Assembly (NCBI RefSeq): GCF_003992125.1
Contig: NZ_RQUY01000004.1
Coordinates: 1-64,000, forward strand
DNA length: 64,000 nt
Reading direction: 5' to 3'
Source: Veillonella caviae
GTDB taxonomy: Bacteria > Bacillota > Negativicutes > Veillonellales > Veillonellaceae
Below the pieces are notes generated by a model. That model was not told the DNA's origin. It searched no databases and saw only the letters and a program-made list of their open reading frames with translations. This document shows, in pieces, positions 6,960 through 24,239 of this stretch; the stretch's first letter is position 1, and every line of letters starts with the position of its first letter. The position numbers and the translations under genes are program-made.

Positions 6960-7643
6960 CTATTTAATATCTACTTGGAAACGTTGTATTGCACTCGCTT
7001 CAATAGGGTTACCATCAGAATCTTTAGCCGGATAGAATGACCAACCATAGACTGCAGATACCACCGCATCATCAGCTGGACCATAACCAGAAGATTTATC
7101 AACCTCAACAAATGTTACATTACCACTAGTGCCTACATAAAGGCGAACTACGATTGTGTCACCAACAGCTTGTGCTTTTGGCACTTCTGGAATCGATGGG
7201 TACGGTCGGCTAATAGGGCGCAAACCTTCTGACTTATCCACCTTTCCTTCACCTTTGTTACCACCAACTAATTGATTTTGTCCATCAGTTGGATCCTGAG
7301 CAGTAGAATTATTTTGATCTTGGTTCTGATTTTGTGGCATCGGTGGTGTTGGCGTGTTATCATCTACCTTCTTATCCTCTACAGGAATAGTATTAGGTGC
7401 ATCTTTCACCATTTGCTGTACTTCTTCTTTAGTTGGTGGCGGTGGGATATCCACTTTTTGCTGTTTCGGTGCAGAAATTTGTGGTGCCGATGGCGCCACA
7501 TCATCAGAAACAATTTCCATTTCGATGGCTTCTGGTTTTGCATTAGCTTCCGGTGCGGAGTAGTTAAGGTATACTGCGCCACCTGTTAATAGTAAACAGT
7601 TAATAAGAAGGGAGCCTGCAAGAGATGATTTCCATCTAGACAT
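6960..7643 (-). CDS. tonB: Energy transducer TonB
   Basis: The periplasm-spanning transducer that carries proton-motive energy from ExbB/ExbD to outer-membrane receptors. It has 227 residues: an N-terminal membrane anchor (about 9-28), a Pro/Glu/Lys/Gln-rich spacer (about 45-145, with PPPP and NQNQDQN stretches) and a C-terminal TonB-C domain (about 150-227; VVRLYVGTSGNVTFVEV, SSGYGPADDAV, YGWSFYPA). TAAGGAGG precedes ATG 7643. It is the third gene of exbB-exbD-tonB and the only full-length TonB in the window, so it presumably serves all three receptors here. Confidence 0.93.
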   Translation of the reverse strand: MSRWKSSLAGSLLINCLLLTGGAVYLNYSAPEANAKPEAIEMEIVSDDVAPSAPQISAPKQQKVDIPPPPTKEEVQQMVKDAPNTIPVEDKKVDDNTPTPPMPQNQNQDQNNSTAQDPTDGQNQLVGGNKGEGKVDKSEGLRPISRPYPSIPEVPKAQAVGDTIVVRLYVGTSGNVTFVEVDKSSGYGPADDAVVSAVYGWSFYPAKDSDGNPIEASAIQRFQVDIK

Positions 7644-7654
7644 AGGGCACCTCC

Positions 7655-8059
7655 TTATTTACTTTCAGTAGCAATAGCAATTTTCGTGATATTCATTTGT
7701 TTCAACGTATCTAATACTTGTACGAATGCACCATATTGAGCAGCTGTATCAGCACGCAACACGACAGTCATATCAGTACCTTTAACTTGCTCAATTTGCA
7801 AATATTTAATCATGCCCTCAATATCTGTTTTCGTATCATTTACAAATACAGAGCCATCAGCAGTAACTGTAATGGGCACTTTCTTTTGAATGTCTACCTT
7901 AGCTGTTTGTGCACCTGGCAAATTGACTGGTACAGATTTTTGTACAACCATAGAGAGCATACTCATCATAAAGAATACGAGCAAGAAAAAGATGATATCA
8001 ATCATAGGGATAATCATCAATCTTGGTTTATTTGTAGTACGTAAGCTTCTAAGCTGCAT
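7655..8059 (-). CDS. exbD: Biopolymer transport protein ExbD/TolR
   Basis: 134-residue proton-channel partner of ExbB. It has a short cytosolic N-terminus (RSLRTTNKPRLMIIP), a single membrane helix containing the key Asp (MIDIIFFLLVFFMM, about residues 19-35) and a periplasmic domain ending KIAIATESK. The ATG at 8059 follows TAGGTGAC and overlaps the exbB 3' end by 11 nt, so translation is probably coupled. A GTG at 8068 is a less likely start. Confidence 0.92.
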   Translation of the reverse strand: MQLRSLRTTNKPRLMIIPMIDIIFFLLVFFMMSMLSMVVQKSVPVNLPGAQTAKVDIQKKVPITVTADGSVFVNDTKTDIEGMIKYLQIEQVKGTDMTVVLRADTAAQYGAFVQVLDTLKQMNITKIAIATESK

Positions 8060-8675
8060 CGTTGTCACCTACCAATGCTGTCATGTATACGGCGCCCACT
8101 TCTTCCATTTCAGATACTAAGCTATCTTCACGTTGTACTAAATACGCATGAATAACAAGAGCAATGATAGCTACGCAAAGACCTGTAGCTGTAGCGATTA
8201 AGGCCTCCCCTACACCGCCAGTAATAGCGAATGGTTCACCATCGGAAACGGACAATACGGAAAAAGAACCAATCATACCAGTTACAGTCCCCAACAAACC
8301 TAATAAAGGAGCTAGTGTAACGATTGTTTCAAGATAGTTTAAATGCGCACGCAAACGAGCTGCAATGGCGCCTGCTGCACCTTGTAAAGCTTGTGTTTGT
8401 TTATCCACATCGTGAGGCTGAGATGCTGCAGTTTCAACAAGCTCCGCTGCTACCCCGCCATCTTCTTCACAGACTTGGCGCAATTCCTTCCATTTACCTT
8501 GTGGCACAAGTTCAGCAACTTTAGCTTTTAATGTATCCATATTGGATTTTGCTGCATTGTACATGCATACACGTTCAATCAAAATCGTAATAGCAATAAT
8601 AGAACAAATCAATAAAGGCCACATAACAAGGCCCCCTTGTAGGAACAAATGTCCTGCATTAGTAATGAATTCCAT
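8049..8675 (-). CDS. exbB: MotA/TolQ/ExbB proton channel
   Basis: 208 residues with the ExbB topology: one N-terminal helix (LVMWPLLICSIIAITILIERV), a large cytosolic loop, then two helices (LETIVTLAPLLGLLGTVTGMIGSF and LIATATGLCVAIIALVIHAYL). Together with ExbD it forms the motor that drives TonB. AGGAGG precedes ATG 8675. It is first in exbB-exbD-tonB and lies downstream of a Fur-like site at 8777-8794. Confidence 0.93.
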   Translation of the reverse strand: MEFITNAGHLFLQGGLVMWPLLICSIIAITILIERVCMYNAAKSNMDTLKAKVAELVPQGKWKELRQVCEEDGGVAAELVETAASQPHDVDKQTQALQGAAGAIAARLRAHLNYLETIVTLAPLLGLLGTVTGMIGSFSVLSVSDGEPFAITGGVGEALIATATGLCVAIIALVIHAYLVQREDSLVSEMEEVGAVYMTALVGDNDAA

Positions 8676-8776
8676 AAAAACCTCCTATAGAATAAAACAA
8701 AATAGATTAATATCGTTATCCTACAATTCACAACTGAGAAATAACGACTAATAAGACTTGAATTATAACCATTTAA

Positions 8777-8805
8777 TGATAATACATATCATCAATTAAC
8801 GTCAA
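8777..8805 (-). promoter_or_regulatory. Fur-like box and possible promoter before exbB
   Basis: An 18-nt near-palindrome (8777-8794, TGATGATATGTATTATCA on the minus strand, 7 of 8 arm positions paired) resembles a Fur site. A TTGACG -35-like hexamer lies at 8800-8805. The -10 is ambiguous: TATTAT at 8779-8784 gives a 15-nt spacer, TTATCA at 8777-8782 gives 17. Iron repression of exbB-exbD-tonB is the expected result. Confidence 0.5.
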
Positions 8806-8855
8806 ATTACCTTTCACTATTTTTTCACCAATTACAAAAATAGCCAAAACTTATA

Positions 8856-10736
8856 TTAGAATGTATGACTCACACCAAATACAAAATGACGTTCTGGCAT
8901 AGCATAAGCACCACGCACTAAGTTTGTAGCCGCACTAGATTCATAATGTTCATTCGTCAAGTTATAGCCTTTAATATAGAATTTCGTATCTGGTCGCCAT
9001 TGATAATTGATATTCATATCCCATAAGAAGTAATTGTTGCTGGTATACAAATCACTGCGACCAGTTACATATGTAAAGTTATTGGAAATATCCCATTTAT
9101 GTTTACTATATGTCAATCCTAGAATATACCCATTGGGACGAGTGTTACGATCATCACTAGCAAAACCTCTACCATTGGCATTAATGCGAATTCGACTATA
9201 ATCATATCCAGCCCGTACACGCCAAGCATCATTGATTTTATAAGTAGCTCCAAGGCTCAATCCACGACGTTTCTCCTCATCCACATTGTAATAGCGAGTA
9301 ATTCCATTCCATTGCCAGTTCAAAGCATTTTTCAATTTAGAATCGTATACGCTAGCAGATAAAGTTAATGTATCATTAATCTTGCTATCAACGCCAACCG
9401 TTACTGTTCTTGACTTTTCTTGCTCTAAATCAGGATTGCCTTTCATATACGGAGTATTAGCATAACGCATTTTTAATGTTGGATTATTTACTGCAGACCC
9501 CCAAGATGCATACACATGAGTATCTTCACTAATCCGTTTATTAACACCAATATGACTCGTCCAGTCCCCACCATAATCACTATGATGTTCATAACGTCCA
9601 CCTAAATTCATGGACCACCCATCACCTAAAGTCCAACGGTCTTCCGCAAAGATGGATTTCGTAATAGCTTTAGCATCCATTGTAGAGCCATCATTGTTTT
9701 CCCATAAGTGTTGCTCTTCCCAAGAAACACCGCCTACAATATCATGATTCTTCAAAGTCCAATTTTTCTGACCTTCAAAGGTATAGTTTCTTAAATCATG
9801 CTCATACGGTGTGCCTGCAAATGGAGAATTCGTTTGATCACCATTACGAGTAAAGCGAAGGAATGTGCCTTCACCTTTTTCTTTCTGGTTAAACGTATAA
9901 GTCAAGCCTATATTAGTAATCGTAGAATCGAATGTAGAACCACGACCATATACAACACCTTGGGTTGGATTAGTTAAATAAATACCATATCCATCTTTAG
10001 CACGAGATCGTCCAAAATCAACAGTAGCACGATCTTTACCAAAATAGCGATCATAGCGGAAAGTCATATCTTCATGATCGCGATAACTATCATAGAATTC
10101 ATGACTATTACCGTTAATATCGCGATAATCGTAATTGCCGCGTTTTTCTTTTGAATACGTTATCATATAACGATTTAGCTCATCCCCACCAGAATGAGCA
10201 ATAGCGCCACGGCGGTGATTCCACGTACCATATTCAGCAGTAATAGATGTTTTAGTTTCTGGTGCAGGGTCTTTTGTAATAATATTAATAACACCAGCTA
10301 CCGCCTTTTGACCATACAACGCAGAATTTGGTCCACGTACAATTTCGATATGATCTACATTATCCATCGGAATTTGATTAATATCTACAGCATTATCATT
10401 TCCAGAAACAGTAAGATGATCGAAATTTACACGCCGCCCATTTACAAGAACTAGAACACGAGTATCACCGTTCAACACAGGATACGCTGCAGAGCCATGA
10501 TCTACTACATCAACATTAGATGCTTGTAATGCTTGAGATACAGAGCCAAAGTTTCCTTTTTCGATACTTTCACTATTAATAACACTAATATTCGCCGCTA
10601 CGTCTTGAACCGCTGTTTTTACCCGCGTACCAGTAACGATGATATCATCTAATTGATACTCCACCGCCAATGCACTAGGCACAATGGACATAGCAATAGC
10701 ACTTAATACAATGGATTTCAACACTCTTGTCTTCAT
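8856..10736 (-). CDS. TonB-dependent outer-membrane receptor (CirA/BtuB/heme type)
   Basis: 626-residue outer-membrane receptor: signal peptide ending SALA (about residue 24), TonB box DDIIVTGTR, plug domain (VNGRRVNFDHL, then IEIVRGPNSALYGQKAVAGVINIITK) and a 22-strand barrel ending in the terminal aromatic motif VSHTF. A KGNPDLEQEKS segment recalls the NPDL box of heme and siderophore receptors. Gene order places it after a FecCD-type importer, which points to an iron chelate or heme, but the substrate is not determined. The start is ATG 10736, 6 nt after GGAG. Confidence 0.87.
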   Translation of the reverse strand: MKTRVLKSIVLSAIAMSIVPSALAVEYQLDDIIVTGTRVKTAVQDVAANISVINSESIEKGNFGSVSQALQASNVDVVDHGSAAYPVLNGDTRVLVLVNGRRVNFDHLTVSGNDNAVDINQIPMDNVDHIEIVRGPNSALYGQKAVAGVINIITKDPAPETKTSITAEYGTWNHRRGAIAHSGGDELNRYMITYSKEKRGNYDYRDINGNSHEFYDSYRDHEDMTFRYDRYFGKDRATVDFGRSRAKDGYGIYLTNPTQGVVYGRGSTFDSTITNIGLTYTFNQKEKGEGTFLRFTRNGDQTNSPFAGTPYEHDLRNYTFEGQKNWTLKNHDIVGGVSWEEQHLWENNDGSTMDAKAITKSIFAEDRWTLGDGWSMNLGGRYEHHSDYGGDWTSHIGVNKRISEDTHVYASWGSAVNNPTLKMRYANTPYMKGNPDLEQEKSRTVTVGVDSKINDTLTLSASVYDSKLKNALNWQWNGITRYYNVDEEKRRGLSLGATYKINDAWRVRAGYDYSRIRINANGRGFASDDRNTRPNGYILGLTYSKHKWDISNNFTYVTGRSDLYTSNNYFLWDMNINYQWRPDTKFYIKGYNLTNEHYESSAATNLVRGAYAMPERHFVFGVSHTF

Positions 10737-10852
10737 AGTCATCTCCTACACAATCCCATAGGGGGATATTACACATTATTGTGAAAGCTAATTATAGCAA
10801 TACTTCACAGCCATATACATTCCTAATTTTCTAATCTACTAGGGCTATATCA

Positions 10853-11875
10853 TTAATTATCAGTTTCCAATCTATTTACAATCATTTCTAAGGCATCTAC
10901 GACACGGCCATTACCATTATTAACAGCGCTAAACAGAACAGGTATAATACGTCGTTGTGCTACAGCCCGCATATGTTGCAGATTGGGGTCCTCCGCAATA
11001 GACTGAATGCCTTTTTGGGTGAAAGCATCCATATTAGCAACATCATTAGTCATCACCAAAACTATATAGTCAGGGTCATAACCGAGGATACGTTCAGGCC
11101 CCACCGTCATCATTCCTTTGGAAGCCAATGTAATAGCGCCAGCTTTATGAACAATATCATGAATAATATATCTATCGCCATATACCGTATAAGTGCTATT
11201 GCCATACGTTTGTAAGATAAGCACGGTGGGGCTTGTGCCCCGTCGTGTGGCACGCAGTTCTGCATCAGCGATGCGATTCATCAAACTTTGCTTATACGCA
11301 TCTGTTCTGTCAGATACGCCAAAAATACGCCCCATATCGTCAATAAAAGGATATACGGTGCTCTCTACTGTCGGTTTACCTTGACGCACCGTAGCAGGCA
11401 CAATATAGGTACCTACACCTCGCTTGTACCAGTTCCGAACATCACCTAATGCATTAGGTAAAAAATGATGATTCCACCCTATAATTAAATCGGGCTGCAG
11501 GGCTAGTACTTCTTCTTTAGATGGTACAAAAGGCGCCTGTAATGTCGGTAACGCACTATAGGCACTCGCCAATTCAACTGGTTCTACGCCATAAGGCTTT
11601 AAGGTTCCTATAATGCGATTATCTAGCCCTAAGGCAATGAGCAGTTCCGTCGCCCCTGGATACGTAACAAGTACACGCTGTGGTGGCACTTGATAAGCCA
11701 CATCAATAGAATGTCCTTCTCCATCATAATTTTGAATTATCACCGCATCACTGCGGTCTAAATTTCTCAACGACTCCACTGTAACACCAGTACCATGAGT
11801 ATAGCCTAGCCATAAAATACCAATGGATACGATTGTTCCTACCAGTATCTGTGCCCATTTAGATATCCTATACAT
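10853..11875 (-). CDS. Iron-chelate-type ABC substrate-binding protein
   Basis: 340-residue periplasmic binding protein of the Peripla_BP_2/BtuF-FepB class. It has two lobes with the typical sequence PPQRVLVTYPGATELLIALGL near residue 65, then EEVLALQPDLIIGWN, and a C-terminal helix VVDALEMIVNRL. The N-terminus is a hydrophobic helix (about 9-24) with no lipobox Cys, so it is either a cleaved Sec signal or an uncleaved anchor. It overlaps the ATPase gene by 8 nt. The ATG at 11875 follows an AGGTG site. The ligand is unknown; the class carries siderophores, heme or B12. Confidence 0.85.
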   Translation of the reverse strand: MYRISKWAQILVGTIVSIGILWLGYTHGTGVTVESLRNLDRSDAVIIQNYDGEGHSIDVAYQVPPQRVLVTYPGATELLIALGLDNRIIGTLKPYGVEPVELASAYSALPTLQAPFVPSKEEVLALQPDLIIGWNHHFLPNALGDVRNWYKRGVGTYIVPATVRQGKPTVESTVYPFIDDMGRIFGVSDRTDAYKQSLMNRIADAELRATRRGTSPTVLILQTYGNSTYTVYGDRYIIHDIVHKAGAITLASKGMMTVGPERILGYDPDYIVLVMTNDVANMDAFTQKGIQSIAEDPNLQHMRAVAQRRIIPVLFSAVNNGNGRVVDALEMIVNRLETDN

Positions 11876-12716
11876 GATGGTCACCTATCATAGGGGATTC
11901 CTTTACATTACAGATATTAGGTGCCGCTTCATAACATTTACTACTGTGCAAGTCTTCTACTACATAACGAGCATGAGGAATATCGTATTCATCATAATTA
12001 ATAACCGACTCTACTCCATAGACATTAAACAAAGTAGATTCTGTAATGACCTCTTTCGGCGTTCCTAATTGCTGAATAATACCATCTTTTAAGACGCAAA
12101 TACGATCACAGAATAGAGCCGCTAAATTGAGTTCATGCAAAGCCGCTACCACACCAATACCAAGAGATTTTACAATTTTTAATAATTCCAGTTGATATGT
12201 AATATCTAAATGATTAGTTGGCTCATCAAGGATGAGATATTCAGGTTCTTGTACCAAAGCTCTGGCTAACATAACTCGTTGTTGTTCACCACCGGATAAT
12301 GTCATAAACGAGCGATTCTTAGCATGCCACATCCCCACCTTATTTAGAGAACTTTCAGCCAAAGCATAATCATATTCATTATCATCATCAAAACTCTTTT
12401 TATAAGGTGTACGCCCCATAAGAGCAATATCCATAACCGAAAAATCAAAATCAAGGTGTGTAAATTGCCCCATAACAGCAATCTTTTGAGCACTCTCACG
12501 AATGGATACATCTGCCAACGGCACATCATCAAAATAAATTTGCCCTTGTTGAATAGGATTAACTCGATAGAGGTGTTTTAACAGTGTAGATTTACCGCAA
12601 CCATTAGGTCCAATAAGCCCTACAAATTCATGCCCACCTAAAGTCAAAGATATATCCTGTAAAATCTGTTTTCCTTCAACTACATATCGCAAATGTTCAA
12701 TACGAATCGCTCTCAT
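11868..12716 (-). CDS. FecE/BtuD-type ABC transporter ATPase
   Basis: 282 residues. Walker A GPNGCGKST (about 36-44), Q-loop region MGQFTHLDF, signature LSGGEQQRV, Walker B LILDEPTNHLD and an H-loop in AALHEL are all present. It energises uptake through the FecCD permease encoded just upstream. The ATG at 12716 follows GGAGG. The permease stop is only 1 nt away, so the pair is translationally coupled. Confidence 0.92.
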   Translation of the reverse strand: MRAIRIEHLRYVVEGKQILQDISLTLGGHEFVGLIGPNGCGKSTLLKHLYRVNPIQQGQIYFDDVPLADVSIRESAQKIAVMGQFTHLDFDFSVMDIALMGRTPYKKSFDDDNEYDYALAESSLNKVGMWHAKNRSFMTLSGGEQQRVMLARALVQEPEYLILDEPTNHLDITYQLELLKIVKSLGIGVVAALHELNLAALFCDRICVLKDGIIQQLGTPKEVITESTLFNVYGVESVINYDEYDIPHARYVVEDLHSSKCYEAAPNICNVKESPMIGDHHV

Positions 12717-12717
12717 A

Positions 12718-13764
12718 TTAACCTCCAAAATTCCGCGAATTACCAAATAGTAATTTCATAAATAATGGAGCACCCATAAGGGCTGTAATAATACCGATTG
12801 GCAAATCACCAGATGAGAGAAGTACACGACTCAATACATCTGCCCATACGAGGAAGATGGCACCAAACAATACGCCTACAGGCAAAAGGTTACGATGCGA
12901 TGCACCCACTAAAGAGCGCATCATATGCGGAATTACTAGCCCCACAAAACCAATAATGCCACATTGAGATACAAGAACACCTACGAGAAGTGCAATAAGC
13001 CCCATATAGATACGACGTTGTTTCGTCACATCGATACCAAGTGTAATAGCAGCCTCTTCACCGAGAAGGAGGGCATCTAAAATGCGTACCCGGCTCATAA
13101 AATATGCTGTTATAACGGCTACAACAGCCATAGGCAAGACAAGACCATCCCATTTAGCATCTGCCAAAGAGCCCATAGTCCAAAATGTAGCCGATTGCAT
13201 CCCTTCTGCATCACCTGCCATGTAAATGATAAAATTCGATAATGCCGTGCACAAGGCACTCACTACTGCACCTGCTAGGATAAGACGCACAGTAGACATA
13301 CGACTTCGAATACCCGCTAATAAGAGTACGCCTACAGTGGCTACCATAGCGCCGATGAAAGCACCCATAGGAACACCGATAACAACACCTTGAACCGCCA
13401 ATATACTACCTAATAAGATAGTAGCAACAGCTCCTACCGATGCCCCGGATGCAATGCCTAAAATAAAAGGTTCTGCCAAAGGATTTTGTACAGATGCTTG
13501 CATAACAAGTCCTGACAATGCTAGCCCTGCCCCTACAATAGCCGCTAGGAGAGCTCGAGGTACCCGAATATCCCAAACGATATCAGCTATAGCTGGTGCT
13601 ACTAGAGGCTCCAGCCCCCACAGCTTGGCAACGATAATATGCCACACATCACTAGGTTGTATAGATACAGCTCCTGCTGATACAGCCAATACAATAGATA
13701 CTACTAAAAGCAATATTAACCCCCACTGTACAACCACTAATCGAGTTTGACTGATATAACTCAC
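12718..13764 (-). CDS. FecCD-family ABC transporter permease
   Basis: 348-residue inner-membrane permease with about ten hydrophobic segments. Typical family blocks are DIRVPRALLAAIVGAGLALSG, QNPLAEPFILGIASGA and GIIGFVGLVIPHMMR (split here for length). It is probably a homodimer with the downstream ATPase for import of an iron chelate, heme or cobamide. It is the first gene of the unit permease-ATPase-binding protein-receptor, behind a promoter with a Fur-like overlap at 13957-13985. Confidence 0.92.
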   Translation of the reverse strand: MSYISQTRLVVVQWGLILLLVVSIVLAVSAGAVSIQPSDVWHIIVAKLWGLEPLVAPAIADIVWDIRVPRALLAAIVGAGLALSGLVMQASVQNPLAEPFILGIASGASVGAVATILLGSILAVQGVVIGVPMGAFIGAMVATVGVLLLAGIRSRMSTVRLILAGAVVSALCTALSNFIIYMAGDAEGMQSATFWTMGSLADAKWDGLVLPMAVVAVITAYFMSRVRILDALLLGEEAAITLGIDVTKQRRIYMGLIALLVGVLVSQCGIIGFVGLVIPHMMRSLVGASHRNLLPVGVLFGAIFLVWADVLSRVLLSSGDLPIGIITALMGAPLFMKLLFGNSRNFGG

Positions 13765-16878: not shown

Positions 16879-17661
16879 TTATATATTATAATGACTGTCT
16901 ATCAAGTTGCTTGTAAATATTGTTTTAGGCTCTGACAAGACTTTATCGGTGCTTCCATTTTCAATAATGACACCTTCAGATATAACGGCTAACGAATCAG
17001 TCATAAAAGACATTAAGTCTATATCATGAGAAATAAACAGATACGTTAAATTATGTTTTAGCTTTAACTCTTTTAATATATTAAGCACTATATCTTGTGC
17101 AATTGTGTCTAGCTGGGTCGTTGGCTCATCTAAAATGATAGTTTCAGGCTCAATTAACAAACATCGTGCCAAACATACACGTTGTAATTCACCACCACTT
17201 AATTCCGAAATCTTTCTAGATAAGATTGATTTCGCCAACTTAACCTCTTCCAACTGATTTATACAAAACCGTCTCGCAATGTCGTCAAATCGTTTGTGAT
17301 GAATTAAATATACCTCAGCTAGAACCTCCTCTACTGTATATTTAGGATATACAGATGCATATGGATTTTGGCTGAGCAGTTGACATGATTTGCGAAATGC
17401 TAAATTTTCAAACTTGCACCATTCTTTTATTGACTTATGTTTATATAGAACACTCCCTGAATCATATGCCTCCAAACCTAAGAGGATGTTAGCTATAGTC
17501 GATTTGCCTGATCCACTAGAACCTACTAAACCAAATGAAGTTCCTTTAGCAATAGAAAAACTAATATTTTGTAATACAGATATGTCTTTCTTTCTAAAAA
17601 ATCCAGTCCTATAAATCTTCTTTAAGTTCTGAACGGTAATCATTTCACAACTATCAAACAT
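16879..17661 (-). CDS. Nickel/peptide-type ABC ATPase (NikE/OppF-like)
   Basis: 260 residues. Walker A GSSGSGKST (about 41-49), Q-loop in LLSQNPYASVYP, signature LSGGELQRV, Walker B TIILDEPTTQLD and H-loop FISHDI are present. The QNPYASVYP stretch is typical of the OppF/NikE half. It is the last gene of a six-gene unit, 5 nt after the other ATPase gene, and is followed by a terminator. It should pair with the NikD/OppD-like ATPase as a heterodimer. Confidence 0.88.
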   Translation of the reverse strand: MFDSCEMITVQNLKKIYRTGFFRKKDISVLQNISFSIAKGTSFGLVGSSGSGKSTIANILLGLEAYDSGSVLYKHKSIKEWCKFENLAFRKSCQLLSQNPYASVYPKYTVEEVLAEVYLIHHKRFDDIARRFCINQLEEVKLAKSILSRKISELSGGELQRVCLARCLLIEPETIILDEPTTQLDTIAQDIVLNILKELKLKHNLTYLFISHDIDLMSFMTDSLAVISEGVIIENGSTDKVLSEPKTIFTSNLIDSHYNI

Positions 17662-17666
17662 TACTC

Positions 17667-18452
17667 TTATTTCCCCACCCCTCTATTCAATAAAGTCTTC
17701 CTATAAAGGCTTTTAGACAACAATTGATTTAAGTATTTACTTTTAGGAGATAAGATGCATTTATACGTAACTCCACATTCTCTAATAAGACCTGACTCCA
17801 TAACAACTAAATAATGACTTAAAACTTCTGCGACTTGTAAATCATGTGTAATCACAATAATTCCACAGCTAATATTTTCTTGTAGCTTTCTAAAAATATT
17901 CACCACTTGCTTACGCGCAATCGCATCTAACCCTTTAGTCGGTTCATCTGCAATAATCCATTTTGGATGTAGTAAATTAGCCATTGCGCAAATAACTCGT
18001 TGTTGCATTCCACCACTTAACTGAAAAGGATAAGAGTTTAAGATACGCTGACAATCTTCCAATCCGTATTCTTTTAATACATTATGTATTTCAGAAACAT
18101 TAGAAACATCTTGTTCATTGAAATACAATAAATCTAAGAATTGTTCTCTAACTGTAAGTGTTGGATTCAAAGCCGTTAATGGATTTTGTGGAATATAAAA
18201 AATACCTTTTCCTCTTAGCTTATCTTTATAGGCACCATCCAACTTCTGGACTCCTACCTTAATTGTGCCACTAATCTTGGCTTCAGGAATCAAATTAACT
18301 ATACTTTTACCAAGTAGCGATTTGCCACTGCCAGATTCTCCAACAACCGCAGTAATTTTGTTATGCTGAAACCTCACAGACACAGAATGAACAACTTCAC
18401 CTTGTGCTAAAGGGAAAGAAATAGAAAGATTTTCAATTATAATATCATCCAT
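17667..18452 (-). CDS. Nickel/peptide-type ABC ATPase (NikD/OppD-like)
   Basis: 261 residues. Walker A GESGSGKS (about 36-43), Q-loop YIPQNPLTALNP, signature LSGGMQQRV, Walker B WIIADEPTKGLD and H-loop VITHDL. PLTALNPTLTV is the usual OppD/NikD block. The start is the ATG at 18452, whose A is the last base of the permease stop codon (TGATG overlap), a coupled start; a GTG one codon upstream is less likely. Confidence 0.88.
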   Translation of the reverse strand: MDDIIIENLSISFPLAQGEVVHSVSVRFQHNKITAVVGESGSGKSLLGKSIVNLIPEAKISGTIKVGVQKLDGAYKDKLRGKGIFYIPQNPLTALNPTLTVREQFLDLLYFNEQDVSNVSEIHNVLKEYGLEDCQRILNSYPFQLSGGMQQRVICAMANLLHPKWIIADEPTKGLDAIARKQVVNIFRKLQENISCGIIVITHDLQVAEVLSHYLVVMESGLIRECGVTYKCILSPKSKYLNQLLSKSLYRKTLLNRGVGK

Positions 18453-19252
18453 CACAAATAGTATCCTCTTAATCTCTCACCTATATAATTTAAACATCCA
18501 CAAAATAATATAATAGCTATTCCCGGAATATACACTAAACGAGGAAACGTACGATAATAAGTCATCCCTTCTTGTACCATAATTCCCCAGTCAGCCAATG
18601 GCGGTTGTATGCCTAAACCAATAAAACTAAGAGACGCTACCAATAAAATAGTAGTACTAATCCGCATCATCAGCAAAGTTAATGCCAAAGGAATAACCGT
18701 AGGCATAATATAATGCCTAATGCAATAAAAAGGTGTAGCACCTAACACAATTACTGATTTTACATAGGGCTTTGATTTTACAGCTAAAACTTCGCCCCTA
18801 ATCATCTGTGCAAAAGATGTCCATGACGTTATAACAACAGCCAAAGTCAAACTAAACATCGAAGGTTCTAAGATACCAGTTATAGCAATCATAAAGGCAT
18901 ATCCTGGTATCCCCTGAAACAAGTACACTACACTTTGGATGCCATAATCTACCCATCCCCCAAAATACCCACTAGCCACGCCAAGAATGAGCCCCAAAGT
19001 CATCGTCAAAAAAGCTGCCAATATGCCAAAAGATATAGAAATTCGACTCCCAAGCATTAATCGACTTAATATATCTCTCCCCAAAGAATCTGTTCCTAAT
19101 AAATATTCTGAACTCGGTTCCATTAATACATTCGATATTGCAACTTTCATAGGATCATGGGGCGTCCAAAAACAACTAACTATAGAGATAGCCAAAAATA
19201 TAAATAGTATACCGACTGAGGCCCAAAAACCAAAGCCAAACTTATGATTCAT
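18452..19252 (-). CDS. Nickel/peptide-type ABC permease (NikC/OppC-like)
   Basis: 266 residues. N-terminal helix, then the OppC/NikC-type block (HDPMKVAISNVLMEPSSEY, LLGTDSLGRDILSRLMLGSR) and the DppC-like core (TPFYCIRHYIMPTVIPL, the EAA loop region), ending in AIILFCGCLNYIGERLRGYY. About six membrane helices. GGAGG precedes the ATG at 19252, and the gene overlaps the NikB-like permease by 11 nt. Confidence 0.9.
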   Translation of the reverse strand: MNHKFGFGFWASVGILFIFLAISIVSCFWTPHDPMKVAISNVLMEPSSEYLLGTDSLGRDILSRLMLGSRISISFGILAAFLTMTLGLILGVASGYFGGWVDYGIQSVVYLFQGIPGYAFMIAITGILEPSMFSLTLAVVITSWTSFAQMIRGEVLAVKSKPYVKSVIVLGATPFYCIRHYIMPTVIPLALTLLMMRISTTILLVASLSFIGLGIQPPLADWGIMVQEGMTYYRTFPRLVYIPGIAIILFCGCLNYIGERLRGYYL

Positions 19253-20189
19253 GTGTTCCTCCTATAGAAATCTCTGGCTGTAGCCATACATATAATAGAT
19301 CTATCACGATATTCACTAATATAGTTATAATCCCCATAATAACTATATAACCTTGAATCATTGGATAGTCCCGAAGCTGTATCGCTTGTAATACAGCACT
19401 ACCCAATCCAGGTAATGAGAAAATCAACTCAACAACTACAGCGCCACCCAAGAGCGATCGACTATAATTACCTAATAGTGACAAAACGGATATAATTGAA
19501 TTTCTTATCATATATTTATATATAATATGCCATATTGGCAATCCCTTTGCTTTAGCAAATAATATATAATTCATACTCCTAACTTCTTCTAGCGAAATTC
19601 GTTGTACTCTTATTAAATTACCTGTAACAGGAATCGCTAAAACAATAGCTGGCAATACTAATGAGTACAAAGAATCATATCCATTAGTTGGAAACAGGCT
19701 CCAATTTTCAGCAAAAATATGTATGCCAACCATAGCTAACCAAAAACTCGGTACTGTAGCTATAAAAATCGATATAAGCTCTACACTAGTTCGTATTGTT
19801 TTATGACTACTCATCACTAATATTATTGCTAAAGGCAATGCAATACTCATAGAAATCAAAACAGCAAATACAGTTAATAATACAGTAACAAAAGAAGCTG
19901 TTATCAACATATCAAGTACCGGCTCATTAGTTATATAAGAATTTCCCCAATTACCATGCAATAATCCTTTAAGCCAATCCGTATATTGTTCTATATAAGG
20001 TTTATCAAGCCCCAACTCATGGCGCTTTATCTGGATTTCATCAATTGTTGGTGCATTGGTTCCATCTAAAGTTAATGATACTAAAGCAGGGTCGGAAGGA
20101 GCCAGCTGCAATAAGATAAATGCGATAAGGGTAATACCTAGTATTGTAGGTACAGCAAGAAGAACTTTTTTCCATAAATAACTAGCCAT
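19242..20189 (-). CDS. Nickel/peptide-type ABC permease (NikB/OppB-like)
   Basis: 315 residues. Starts with a membrane helix (VLLAVPTILGITLIAFILLQ), has the RHELGLDKPYIEQYTDWL periplasmic block typical of OppB/NikB, an EAA loop (YILFAKAKGLPIWHIIYKYM) and about six helices in all. It forms the channel with the downstream NikC-like subunit. Its ribosome site GGAGG lies within the last codons of the binding-protein gene, only 1 nt separating the two frames. Confidence 0.9.
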   Translation of the reverse strand: MASYLWKKVLLAVPTILGITLIAFILLQLAPSDPALVSLTLDGTNAPTIDEIQIKRHELGLDKPYIEQYTDWLKGLLHGNWGNSYITNEPVLDMLITASFVTVLLTVFAVLISMSIALPLAIILVMSSHKTIRTSVELISIFIATVPSFWLAMVGIHIFAENWSLFPTNGYDSLYSLVLPAIVLAIPVTGNLIRVQRISLEEVRSMNYILFAKAKGLPIWHIIYKYMIRNSIISVLSLLGNYSRSLLGGAVVVELIFSLPGLGSAVLQAIQLRDYPMIQGYIVIMGIITILVNIVIDLLYVWLQPEISIGGTHES

Positions 20190-20190
20190 A

Positions 20191-21747
20191 TTACCTCCAA
20201 TGAATAGTATCTAAGCTCACACCATAGGTTAGAGCTTGGAATCCCTCTATTTTTTGTTGATTATATACCAATGTGGTTCTGTCACTACCAAAAACTACTA
20301 CAGGCATATGCTCAGAACTTATTTTCTGAAGTTCATTATATTTTATAATATGCGCTTCTTTCGTAATATCTGTTTTTAAGTTATTTAATAGTAATTCTGC
20401 CCTCTCGTCATAATAGCCCACATGATATAGTCTGTTCATGCTTCCGTTTTCAGCCAAATATGTTCTAAAAATACCTTCAGGCGCATAACTAGACATCCCC
20501 ATCGTCCCCAAAGAAAAGTCATACTGACCCAGTGATACTAATTTTTTATGTGCAGCACCTTCTAAAATAGTAATGGACACATCAATACCAAGCTCTTTAA
20601 AAATAGCTTGATAATATTGTCCTACTTCCTTATATGAGTATCGGTTAATACCATATTGAGGAATTAACAAAGAAGCTTTAACACGTTGATTGCCCATTAC
20701 TTCATGTGCTAAAGACTTTGCTTGTGTCTCATCATAAATAGTCGCCATAGGAATTGCATAAGGATTTAAGCTGTTAAGTATCGAACCATAAGGTACAGCC
20801 TGCCCTGAAAAGTAAGTATTAATTACATCATCACGATGAATAATTAATGATATAGCCCTAATCATTCTAGGATCAGAAAATGGCCATTTGCTTTGATTAA
20901 CTGTAAGAACTTGATTTAATGTATTATTATTAGTTGATAACGCAAAGCGTTCGTCTTTTAACAAATCACGTGTTAAAGCTGGGGGTATTGCACCAATATC
21001 AACTACACCAACAATTTCTTCGGCCTTTAATGCAGCATACCGAGTATCAGCGTTAGGAATTGCACGTATCCGAATTGTATCAGCTTGAGCTAAATTACCA
21101 TGATACATTTCATTTCTAGACAAAAGAACATATTGATTTTTTTTATACTCTTTTAGTTTAAATGGTCCTGTCCCAATATCAGCATTTATAAAATCCCCTG
21201 TTTTTAAATCAAAACTATTAGGACTAAACATAGCCGATGAGAAATTAATTAATCGTTCAGGAAATACAGGGTCTGGAGACTTCAAATGAAATATTACTAC
21301 ATTATCGCCTCCAGCAGTCGCATTAATGAGCCCTGGATACATAGCCTTTATATTAAATGAATAAAATGGAGATGGCTTTGTACGCATAGCTTGCCATCGT
21401 TGCACATTTCTTATTACAGCATCAGAATTAAATATAGTACCATCGTGAAATGTCACATTATCTTTCAAATAAAAAGTCCATTCCGTATTGTCCTCATTAG
21501 ATTCCCAATGAGTAGCTAAAACACCAACCATAGAACCTTGTGCATCCACACCAATAAGGGGCTCCCACACCATAGCAATACTGCTTACAAAATAAGGGTC
21601 TTTAGGACCTGGTGCAATATCTCTAGGCGCAGCTAATACGATTTCGTTTGACTCCACACTCCCTTTTTGGTGAAATACTAATGCAATCGCAATAATCCAA
21701 ACAAATAAAATCAGCCAAAACCATCTATAAGTTTTTAAAATATACAT
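20191..21747 (-). CDS. Nickel/peptide-type substrate-binding protein (SBP family 5)
   Basis: 518 residues of the family-5 binding-protein fold (NikA/OppA/DppA class): VWEPLIGVDAQGSMVGVLAT, LKDNVTFHDGTIFNSDAV, GTGPFKLKEY and VVGV-like hinge blocks. The N-terminus is a strong hydrophobic helix (about residues 9-25) without a lipobox Cys, so it may stay anchored in the inner membrane. The ligand is not readable. The context (B12 riboswitch, TonB receptor) favours a cobalt or nickel chelate over peptides. The start is uncertain: ATG 21747 or TTG 21756, neither with a good ribosome site; a hairpin occupies the space just upstream. Confidence 0.82.
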   Translation of the reverse strand: MYILKTYRWFWLILFVWIIAIALVFHQKGSVESNEIVLAAPRDIAPGPKDPYFVSSIAMVWEPLIGVDAQGSMVGVLATHWESNEDNTEWTFYLKDNVTFHDGTIFNSDAVIRNVQRWQAMRTKPSPFYSFNIKAMYPGLINATAGGDNVVIFHLKSPDPVFPERLINFSSAMFSPNSFDLKTGDFINADIGTGPFKLKEYKKNQYVLLSRNEMYHGNLAQADTIRIRAIPNADTRYAALKAEEIVGVVDIGAIPPALTRDLLKDERFALSTNNNTLNQVLTVNQSKWPFSDPRMIRAISLIIHRDDVINTYFSGQAVPYGSILNSLNPYAIPMATIYDETQAKSLAHEVMGNQRVKASLLIPQYGINRYSYKEVGQYYQAIFKELGIDVSITILEGAAHKKLVSLGQYDFSLGTMGMSSYAPEGIFRTYLAENGSMNRLYHVGYYDERAELLLNNLKTDITKEAHIIKYNELQKISSEHMPVVVFGSDRTTLVYNQQKIEGFQALTYGVSLDTIHWR

Positions 21748-21754
21748 ATATACC

Positions 21755-21778
21755 AAAAGGGGCTAATATAGCCCCTTT
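21755..21778 (-). terminator. Intra-operon terminator-like hairpin
   Basis: A 10-bp GC-containing stem (AAAGGGGCTA / TAGCCCCTTT, 4-nt loop) followed on the minus strand by TTTT, beginning 7 nt after the receptor stop codon and ending at the start of the binding-protein gene. It probably attenuates transcription from receptor into ABC genes. It may also hide or present the ribosome site. Confidence 0.6.
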
Positions 21779-21784
21779 CTCCTT

Positions 21785-23944
21785 TTACAATTCAAATTGT
21801 ACTGACATCATATACGTTCTTGGCGTAGACACATACACTTGATCACCTCGTGATGCCATCCAATAGTTTTTGTTAAATACATTATAGGCTGTTAAACTAA
21901 TAACTGCTGGTGCATTGTTCCATCTTGTTTTATAACGTACACCTGCATCAAATACAGTATAAGAAGGAACATTAACCAAGCTTCCTGCACCATTACGAAT
22001 AACAGAGTCACCAAAGTATGTTAATCTAGTCATTAAAGCCCAGCGCTCATTAGGATTGTATTCAACCCCCAATGTACCGCTCCAATAAGGTTGAGCACTT
22101 ACACGCCAACCATCCTCACGACCACCTGCAGTTCGTTCTTTTTTTGCATCCAAATACATAGCACCACCAAAAATAGTCCACTTAGGTGCTACACGACCAT
22201 TAATAGTCCATTCAACCCCTTTGTGTCTATCTTGACCATCTTGCATTAACCATGTACCTGTATTATCAGCAACAGTACGATTAACTACAATATTATTAGA
22301 CATTTTAATGTCAAAAAATGCTAATGATGTGAGTAAACCATTTTTTTGATATTTTACTCCCACTTCATTCTGCTTAGTCTTAGCAGGCGGTAATATTTCC
22401 CCCGCATTTCTATATGCTGAACCAACAGGTACTCCTGCATCAAAATATTCAGAATGACTGCCATATATTGACCAATTATCGCTAGGCTTATACATCAATG
22501 CAAATGTCGGTGCTGTAGCACTAGATGTATTCGAACTCGTTAATGTACCAAGACGGTTGTTATAATTATTCGTTGTTGCTTTATGATAATGTACACCCCA
22601 GATTAAATCCCACTTTTTATATTTCACTTCATCTAAGAATGTAATCCCCCACATCTGTTGACGTGCAGCTAACCCGGTTTTATACCTTGTAATAGGCATA
22701 CTAATTTGTCGAATAGTACCATCCAAATTACCCGTACCAAGCACACCAAAACTCTTACTACCATTATTATAGTTTGGTGTAATACCACTTTCACGTTCTT
22801 TCCAAGATTTATCAAAAGCTACCGTCACCTTGTGTTTTACTGCCTTCGAGCCAAAATCATGACGTGTACCAATTTGAGTATAATATGTGTTTTGCGGAGT
22901 CCCACCAATTTGATACTCTAAATCAAAATCTCCTGCACCATTTTTAATAGTATAGGAACTGAACTTAGCCATAATATTATTATCTAAATTATTTCGATTT
23001 AAGCCACCATTAAAGAATACAGTAGTGGTTTTATTTAATTTTTGCTCATGATTAAGACCTACAATATAGCCATATGTTGATTTATACATACCATTAAAAG
23101 CATAATTATTTTTACCATCTGGAGCTTTCGGCAAATAATTCACATTACCTAATTTAAACCAACGCATCCCATTCTCAACTTCACCATCTCGATAACCTAA
23201 GAATAAATTAGTTTTTGAGTTTGCCGTACGATGATCAATATTAGCATATATACTTGCTGTATTTACACGTTCCTTATGAACAGATGTCTCACCTCTTAGA
23301 TATTCAGCATTAATCCGGACACCCCATTCCTTATTAGTACCGAAACGTTTACTCGCATCAATATATTGACCAAAATTACTTTTCCCTGTGAAAGTCTCCT
23401 TAAAAATAATACGAGGTTCCTCACCAGCTTTTTTAGTAACAAAATTTACCATACCACCTGCAGCTGTTGATTCATATTGAATTGCAGACCCAGTATATCC
23501 ACCTGCTGGCCCATTTAAAAATTCAATATGATCCATTGCATATGTTGGCGCATTAAATTGCGTCATTAAGCCAGGAATACCATTTATCAAGCTTGATGTC
23601 CCATTAGAACGAATACCTCTAATCGTAAAATCATTATGTAATGTGCTCCCCGCCATACGTACAGATGGGTTGACACTTAGCACCTTATCCAAAGGTAATG
23701 TAGATGCCGTAAACTGCTCTACTGTTCTAGGCCCAATAACACTTGCAGAGCTAGGAGTGTCAATAATATCGCGCTCCCCCATTAACCCATAAGATGTATC
23801 CGTCCTTGAATACCCTCCTTGCAATACTTTTTCACGATTACCATAAACAATAATATCATCCAGCTGATACTCTGCAGCATGACCTACACAAGGATATGAT
23901 AACAATACAGCCATTACAGCATAAAACAGCTCTCTCTTTCTCAT
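21785..23944 (-). CDS. TonB-dependent receptor under B12 riboswitch control
   Basis: 719-residue outer-membrane receptor: signal peptide ending VGHAAE (about 24), TonB box DDIIVYGNR, siderophore-type plug (FTIRGIRSNG, MDHIEFLNGPAGGYTG, GGMVNFVTKKA) and a barrel ending SVQFEL. The usual terminal aromatic is at the third-from-last place, with Leu last, slightly atypical. AAGGAG precedes ATG 23944. It heads a six-gene unit with a nickel/peptide-type ABC importer and is preceded by a terminator and a cobalamin riboswitch. Substrate likely cobalt-chelate or corrinoid (inference). Confidence 0.87.
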   Translation of the reverse strand: MRKRELFYAVMAVLLSYPCVGHAAEYQLDDIIVYGNREKVLQGGYSRTDTSYGLMGERDIIDTPSSASVIGPRTVEQFTASTLPLDKVLSVNPSVRMAGSTLHNDFTIRGIRSNGTSSLINGIPGLMTQFNAPTYAMDHIEFLNGPAGGYTGSAIQYESTAAGGMVNFVTKKAGEEPRIIFKETFTGKSNFGQYIDASKRFGTNKEWGVRINAEYLRGETSVHKERVNTASIYANIDHRTANSKTNLFLGYRDGEVENGMRWFKLGNVNYLPKAPDGKNNYAFNGMYKSTYGYIVGLNHEQKLNKTTTVFFNGGLNRNNLDNNIMAKFSSYTIKNGAGDFDLEYQIGGTPQNTYYTQIGTRHDFGSKAVKHKVTVAFDKSWKERESGITPNYNNGSKSFGVLGTGNLDGTIRQISMPITRYKTGLAARQQMWGITFLDEVKYKKWDLIWGVHYHKATTNNYNNRLGTLTSSNTSSATAPTFALMYKPSDNWSIYGSHSEYFDAGVPVGSAYRNAGEILPPAKTKQNEVGVKYQKNGLLTSLAFFDIKMSNNIVVNRTVADNTGTWLMQDGQDRHKGVEWTINGRVAPKWTIFGGAMYLDAKKERTAGGREDGWRVSAQPYWSGTLGVEYNPNERWALMTRLTYFGDSVIRNGAGSLVNVPSYTVFDAGVRYKTRWNNAPAVISLTAYNVFNKNYWMASRGDQVYVSTPRTYMMSVQFEL

Positions 23945-23980
23945 ATAAGCTCCTTAAAATTACACACACTACACACAAAA

Positions 23981-24018
23981 AAATAGGGTATATCTACAAA
24001 CGCAGATATACCCTATTT
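23981..24018 (-). terminator. Riboswitch expression-platform terminator
   Basis: A perfect 15-bp stem (23981-23995 with 24004-24018), 8-nt loop, and a seven-T run on the minus strand (23980-23974). It lies between the cobalamin aptamer and the receptor ATG, where ligand-dependent termination would act. Confidence 0.8.
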
Positions 24019-24100
24019 ATATAAAACATTATACTACTAGACTGTATATTATTTATATCATATTGCCTATCTATCACTCGTAGATTAAAACGGAAATATT

Positions 24101-24239
24101 AGATAGGCAGTTCTCCTGGCTTAGATTCATCGCATCTTTCACCTTCCCAGTTTCCCAGTGGCATTTTGAAAGTAGCTCCTCTTACAGTGGCGGGACCGCA
24201 TCGGCTTATACCGATTTCTCTATTAAGTATTTACACCTA
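24101..24239 (-). promoter_or_regulatory. Cobalamin riboswitch
   Basis: On the minus strand the conserved B12-aptamer blocks occur in the right order: AATAGAGAA, GGTATAAGCC, GGTCCCGCCACTG (24194-24185 core), a second GCCACTG B12 box (24162-24156), CTGGGAAGG and AAGCCAGGAGAACTGCC. The 3' end TGCCTATCT can also pair with AGATAGGCA at 24063-24071, a likely antiterminator or switching helix, upstream of the terminator at 23981-24018. High B12 should shut off the receptor-ABC operon. Confidence 0.93.

Follow-up and report, generated by a model that had tools for sequence, protein, structure and literature searches.

Cobalt import under the control of vitamin B12 (cobalamin) has been described or proposed in several forms. 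Cobalamin riboswitches stand before NikABCDE operons in Clostridium tetani and Desulfitobacterium hafniense, which PMC2667541 treats as exceptions to nickel specificity with cobalt as the suspected substrate. According to PMC9600662, the nikA riboswitch of Sporomusa ovata is functional in a B. subtilis reporter and is one of the promiscuous kind, as most switches from Negativicutes answered in a reporter to each of the four corrinoids tried. In Novosphingobium a receptor, a NiCoT permease and CobW lie under a cobalamin riboswitch, and cobalt supply is predicted, while in Sinorhizobium meliloti the ATP-binding cassette (ABC) cobalt importer CbtJKL is under such a switch (PMC7689651); the same review also cites the NikH receptor of Helicobacter mustelae with its ABC importer and FrpB4 of H. 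pylori, for nickel/cobalt. Here we consider an operon in a 64,000-nucleotide stretch of Veillonella caviae DNA (NZ_RQUY01000004.1, positions 1 to 64,000; the window), in which a cobalamin riboswitch precedes genes for a TonB-dependent outer-membrane receptor and an Opp/Nik-family ABC importer. We propose that it brings in cobalt for cobamide synthesis, probably as a small chelate, and that cobamide represses this import. The substrate in this reading is our inference, and we would put the probability of the whole at about 0.58; the RNA and its terminator, the operon, the protein families, their conservation and the B12-synthesis genes of the host are directly observed.

The riboswitch and its operon

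The initial annotation had placed a cobalamin aptamer and a terminator ahead of the receptor gene, and both were borne out, the former by the Rfam covariance-model search that it had named as a check. The transcription unit considered below is composed as follows.

24296-24268, minus strand: promoter-like TTGCTA-17-TATACT, 13 bases 5' of the aptamer (consensus scan only, 9/12 positions)
24255-24089, minus strand: cobalamin (B12) riboswitch aptamer (RF00174, 96.5 bits, E 8.4e-23, model positions 1-189 complete)
24018-23981, minus strand: intrinsic terminator in the riboswitch expression platform (probable OFF switch; 17-pair stem and T run, -23.8 kcal/mol alone)
23944-21785, minus strand: TonB-dependent outer-membrane receptor TBDT1, 719 aa (PF00593, PF07715 and TIGR01783 above cut-off)
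21778-21756, minus strand: intercistronic hairpin AAAGGGGCTATATTAGCCCCTTT at the junction of receptor and binding-protein genes (palindromic; the scan listed it as a plus-strand terminator-like site)
21756-20191, minus strand: periplasmic family-5 solute-binding protein (SBP; PF00496, 214.6 bits)
20189-19242, minus strand: permease B, NikB/OppB family (PF00528; Opp2B 278.7/350 and Opp1B 267.5/380, both below cut-off)
19252-18452, minus strand: permease C, NikC/OppC family (PF00528; Opp2C 230.9/300, below cut-off)
18455-17667, minus strand: ATPase D, NikD/OppD family (PF00005; NikD 195.7/318.7, below cut-off)
17661-16879, minus strand: ATPase E, NikE/OppF family (PF00005; NikE 193.6/332.6, below cut-off)
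~16871-16837, minus strand: operon-closing terminator GAGCCCTACCAtaatagttcgTGGTAGGGCTTTTT (GAGCCCTACCA ... TGGTAGGGCTTTTT), read from the sequence

The aptamer, the sole Rfam match in the window at gathering threshold, belongs to RF00174 both by its full-length score (gathering score 31.5 bits) and by the terminator in its platform; the end coordinate 24239 given in the initial annotation omits its first 16 bases. It is followed by a P13-like hairpin, the terminator, a good ribosome-binding site (AAGGAG) and then six open reading frames (ORFs). The fold energy of the expression platform lies 5.75 SD under that of shuffles, and the 5' arm of the terminator has an alternative pairing available that is weaker than the terminator itself. 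Judged from the terminator, the riboswitch is most likely an OFF switch. Consensus matches of the quality of the promoter-like site are no commoner here than in shuffled sequence.

From 24296 to ~16837 the minus strand resembles a single transcription unit, in which the six co-directional ORFs (23944-16879) are separated by gaps or overlaps of at most ~30 bases. The proposal of one operon that runs from the receptor through the binding protein and the permease pair to the ATPase pair was confirmed, and the six genes would be co-transcribed. For the SBP, the TTG given as its start falls inside the intercistronic hairpin, and the ATG a few codons downstream is probably the true start. Because the terminator follows the last ATPase gene, the receptor at 16509-14356, which had been considered as a further member, is ruled out and forms a separate unit, as do the more distal FecB/C/E and BtuB-like genes. 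Those genes lie on the minus strand at 6960-13764, in a row that comprises TonB, ExbD, ExbB, a receptor resembling BtuB and an importer of the FecB/C/E type; this BtuB-like receptor (8856-10742) gives a weak match to the B12-receptor model and is not preceded by a cobalamin riboswitch.

Recurrence, ancestry and replacement by other importers

Homologues of the cassette occur in 24 of 380 Negativicutes genomes, which represent 16 of 102 genera. Of the 23 relatives' loci that were read, 22 have a TBDT1-like receptor, or two of them, beside the SBP, permease and ATPase genes; two of the 23 end at the receptor, leaving 21 to be assessed for a riboswitch. Sixteen of these 21 carry RF00174 just upstream. 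The number of cobalamin riboswitches in these genomes would predict 0.03, so that cassette and riboswitch occur together more often than by chance; at one locus (L055) receptor and SBP operon are divergent and each has a riboswitch of its own. The view that B12 control points to cobalt or corrinoid supply is strengthened by this class-wide conservation and by the B12-synthesis genes of the host.

Within the genus, 13 congeners lack the SBP; its sole further match among the 28 genomes of the family has 38% identity, and a search of the genome contigs for related loci recovered only distant binding proteins. Maximum-likelihood analysis places the window SBP as sister (100/100) to the SBPs of family f24 (46-47% identity) and not to the same-family SBP, and a G+C content of 35.4% stands against 39.3% for the whole window; tree placement and composition together point to lateral gain. 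Two variations among the relatives may be mentioned. A gene for a SAM-dependent methyltransferase lies in or beside the cassette at five loci (L052, L063, L064, L065 and L066, e.g. L066 8243-9091), three of which have no riboswitch. Two family f4 genomes have two binding-protein genes in tandem per cassette (L059 8268-11420, L064 7555-10716), which suggests that a single importer there serves two ligands.

The operon of the window lies next to an acetyltransferase gene, GNATb. At the corresponding place, downstream of GNATb, a cobalamin riboswitch and behind it an importer of the FecB/C/E type are present in four congeners (L135, L137, L139, L141), whereas six others have neither riboswitch nor importer at this site. 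Elsewhere in most congeners a different Opp-family importer, with two permeases, a binding protein, two ATPases and often a second binding protein (L144, L145, L146, L147, L149, L150), follows immediately on a cobalamin riboswitch of lower score (56-73 bits); the host genome has no riboswitch of this group. B12-switched importers of differing kinds are thus readily swapped among related cobamide makers, even at one chromosomal place. Such replacement of non-orthologous importers by one another fits one shared and repeated need, for which cobalt would be the simplest candidate in cobamide makers.

The host genome (1.96 Mb, 56 contigs) has four cobalamin riboswitches, namely before mutAB, before the operon described here, before an importer on contig C30, and one with no gene directly after it. 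That before mutA/mutB/meaB (L005, riboswitch 12016-12192, genes 11733-6239), which include the B12-dependent methylmalonyl-CoA mutase, is already known in Veillonella (PMC9600662, PMC7160235). The C30 importer (L007 2647-7893, G000:C30) is a second Opp/Nik-family system and has no receptor; binding proteins with 67% identity to its own occur in just two genomes, both from a different genus within the family. Beside its riboswitch an apparent fusion of FecCD permease and FecE ATPase (L007 1503-2201, minus strand) looks as if it were the remnant of a lost Btu/Fec-type importer. The gene-less riboswitch (L006 570-850, G000:C16:575-745) has a conserved terminator, with a tRNA gene and mfd ~300-800 bases on, and is present in 14 of 14 genomes of the genus (L107-L110, L117, L119-L124, L127, L129); it may be a B12-responsive small RNA or an attenuator of read-through into the tRNA/mfd region.

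What the importer may carry

Let us assume that the operon supplies cobalt. When cobamide is scarce, the weaker pairing of the terminator 5' arm could form, the leader RNA would escape the terminator, and the receptor and the ABC importer would be made. The receptor, powered by TonB/ExbB/ExbD, would then move a small molecule that bears cobalt across the outer membrane, most likely Co(II) bound by a chelator from outside, and the family-5 SBP would pass the ligand to the importer of two permeases and two ATPases. The imported cobalt would enter the anaerobic cobamide pathway of the cell until cobamide became plentiful enough to bind the aptamer, upon which the terminator would form and the operon would be switched off. 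The host has a single cluster of cbiD, E, T, F, G, H, J and C, with BtuC/BtuD-like genes after it (cbiD, cbiH and cbiC were assigned by NCBIfam, the remaining cbi genes through methylase matches, order and sequence start); its genome has no CbiM.

Several observations weigh against this account. Five of the 21 assessable relatives have no riboswitch, four of them (L052, L059, L064, L065) even at a permissive threshold and the fifth (L073, which has no receptor) at the gathering threshold. CbiD is present in 23 of the 24 cassette genomes, the exception being a genome 83% complete, but it is also present in 332 of the 380 genomes of the class (87%), so that its presence, near-universal and uninformative, was discarded as a means of telling cobalt from corrinoid. 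Nor is CbiM significantly rarer in genomes with the cassette (8/24 vs 120/356; among good genomes 4/19 vs 88/215, p 0.14); its anticorrelation was consequently dropped as proof of cobalt, and we make no argument from a replacement of CbiM. No genes for metallophore or opine synthesis were recognised near the operon in a local look that scanned part of the ORFs. Of the earlier suggestion that a cobalt chelate, perhaps a metallophore, is imported, the link to cobalt or corrinoid stands, while the metallophore is a guess. The SBP, as discussed next, also lacks the residues with which NikA holds its metal chelate.

The importer has the composition of the Opp/Nik family by Pfam and NCBIfam profiles (SBP_bac_5, two BPD_transp_1 permeases and two ABC_tran ATPases in one operon), and the class assignment made initially holds at this level, but the narrower term Nik-type does not, as the NikA chelate-binding residues are absent and structure comparison does not separate NikA from its relatives. 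This bears directly on the idea that nickel or a nickel chelate is imported, with B12 control for indirect reasons, which we consider quite improbable. The best named families are indeed the Nik and Opp2 nickel models, and NikA is the best Foldseek match of the SBP. Nickel, staphylopine and Opp models of NCBIfam all match importer subunits, yet none attains its cut-off: the NikABCDE equivalogs score 142.6/393 (A, TIGR02294), 238.8/447 (B), 228.1/358.5 (C), 195.7/318.7 (D) and 193.6/332.6 (E) bits, and CntA, CntC and CntD/F score 109/800, 160.3/440 and ~182/380-385 bits. Against E. coli NikA (from NC_000913.3; 25% identity), the residues of the window SBP aligned to the chelate-binding set Arg97, Arg137, Tyr402 and His416 named in PMC2667541 are P128, F172, Y424 and G438, only Tyr402 being kept. 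None of the 24 cassette SBPs compared has Arg137 or His416, only 2 retain Arg97, and Trp100 and Trp398 are replaced in every one. By the features tested, the window SBP is not a NikA; its clade has invariant positions of its own, e.g. Arg45, Phe131-Tyr132, Gly438 and Asn441. The structure model is middling (pLDDT 66, built with 11 distant sequences), and the comparison with NikA and CntA proposed at the outset matched both folds without telling them apart: the top five matches are nearly tied (5u4o, GsiB/YliB, NikA, Brucella NikA and CtaP, Z 25.3-26.9), and NikA, GsiB, CntA and DppA, among others, lie within a few Z units, about equal. Moreover, the regulator is B12 and not nickel. An importer of peptides or another organic nutrient, the need for which rises at low cobamide (methionine-rich peptides, for example), would suit the Opp family at large, and some of the matched permease and ATPase models are indeed of peptide systems; it is nevertheless very improbable, since a coupled receptor of the siderophore class (22/23 loci) is unusual for peptide uptake. 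Many family-5 peptide and nickel binding proteins have a W..YDP pattern, whereas the SBP clade has a conserved GLPN/SSYAP region without it.

The receptor raises the idea of a siderophore (iron) importer that came under a cobalamin riboswitch through rearrangement: TBDT1 passes the siderophore-receptor model TIGR01783 (246 vs cut-off 223.5), and its closest solved structures by sequence are BauA and FemA. We regard this as the most remote of the explanations, however, as the riboswitch is kept at 16 of 21 distant loci and would not reflect one rearrangement; iron-siderophore importers are mostly FecBCD-type, and the host genome also has importers of that type. The salvage of corrinoids, in which receptor and importer would take in intact cobamides or cobinamide instead of or beside BtuBFCD, is unlikely, though the least so of these alternatives. 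Corrinoid uptake is often under cobalamin riboswitches, family-5 binding proteins can hold ligands as large as heme (SapA-heme is among the fold matches), one cassette (L060) adjoins two cobT genes with a riboswitch of their own, and promiscuous Negativicutes switches sense cobinamide (PMC9600662). On the other hand, the host has the synthesis genes and separate BtuC-like systems, and the locus is not of BtuBFCD type: the receptor matches TIGR01783 and not TIGR01779, and the permeases are BPD_transp_1 and not FecCD/BtuC-type. The BtuB-like receptor of the window has no riboswitch. To our knowledge, the corrinoid importers characterised so far belong to the Btu or ECF types and none to the Opp type. 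No dedicated corrinoid-binding protein is among the structure matches listed, which is no evidence of absence. We would still entertain, as a doubtful possibility, that the ligand of this SBP clade is a whole corrinoid, or else a cobalt chelate dedicated to the purpose (a 'cobaltophore'), taken in through an Opp-family importer with its own receptor; this would be an undescribed B12-switched route from the outside to the cytoplasm.

Comparison with described systems

Whatever the cargo, the idea of B12-controlled Nik-family cobalt import (PMC2667541, PMC7689651) and a B12-switched receptor with a cobalt permease are already on record; new relative to the cited literature, as far as it shows, are the receptor-first cassette, its recurrence with a riboswitch in the Negativicutes, the distinct SBP clade and the exchange of one importer for another at a single site. 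The B12-switched NikABCDE operons share with this locus the cobalamin riboswitch and a Nik/Opp-family set of one binding protein with paired permeases and ATPases, but here a TonB-dependent receptor comes first, and the available text mentions neither a receptor nor this SBP clade for them. CbtJKL is of BtuF-like type and resembles the FecB/C/E operon of the four sister species rather than this one. The importers of staphylopine and pseudopaline (CntA family) likewise have a family-5 binding protein for metal chelates, cobalt included (PDB 5yhe), and differ in that no opine-synthesis genes were recognised in the local look here and the subunits fall under the Cnt cut-offs. The Helicobacter systems, NikH and FrpB4, combine a receptor with an ABC importer as here, but are not reported in PMC7689651 as B12-switched. 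In Novosphingobium the B12 switch, an outer-membrane receptor and a predicted cobalt supply occur together as we propose here, with a secondary permease in place of the Opp-family ABC importer. According to PMC7689651, no cobalt-specific outer-membrane receptor has been confirmed; the present cassette, a conserved B12-switched pair of receptor and importer in diderm Firmicutes, is a place where this gap becomes directly testable.

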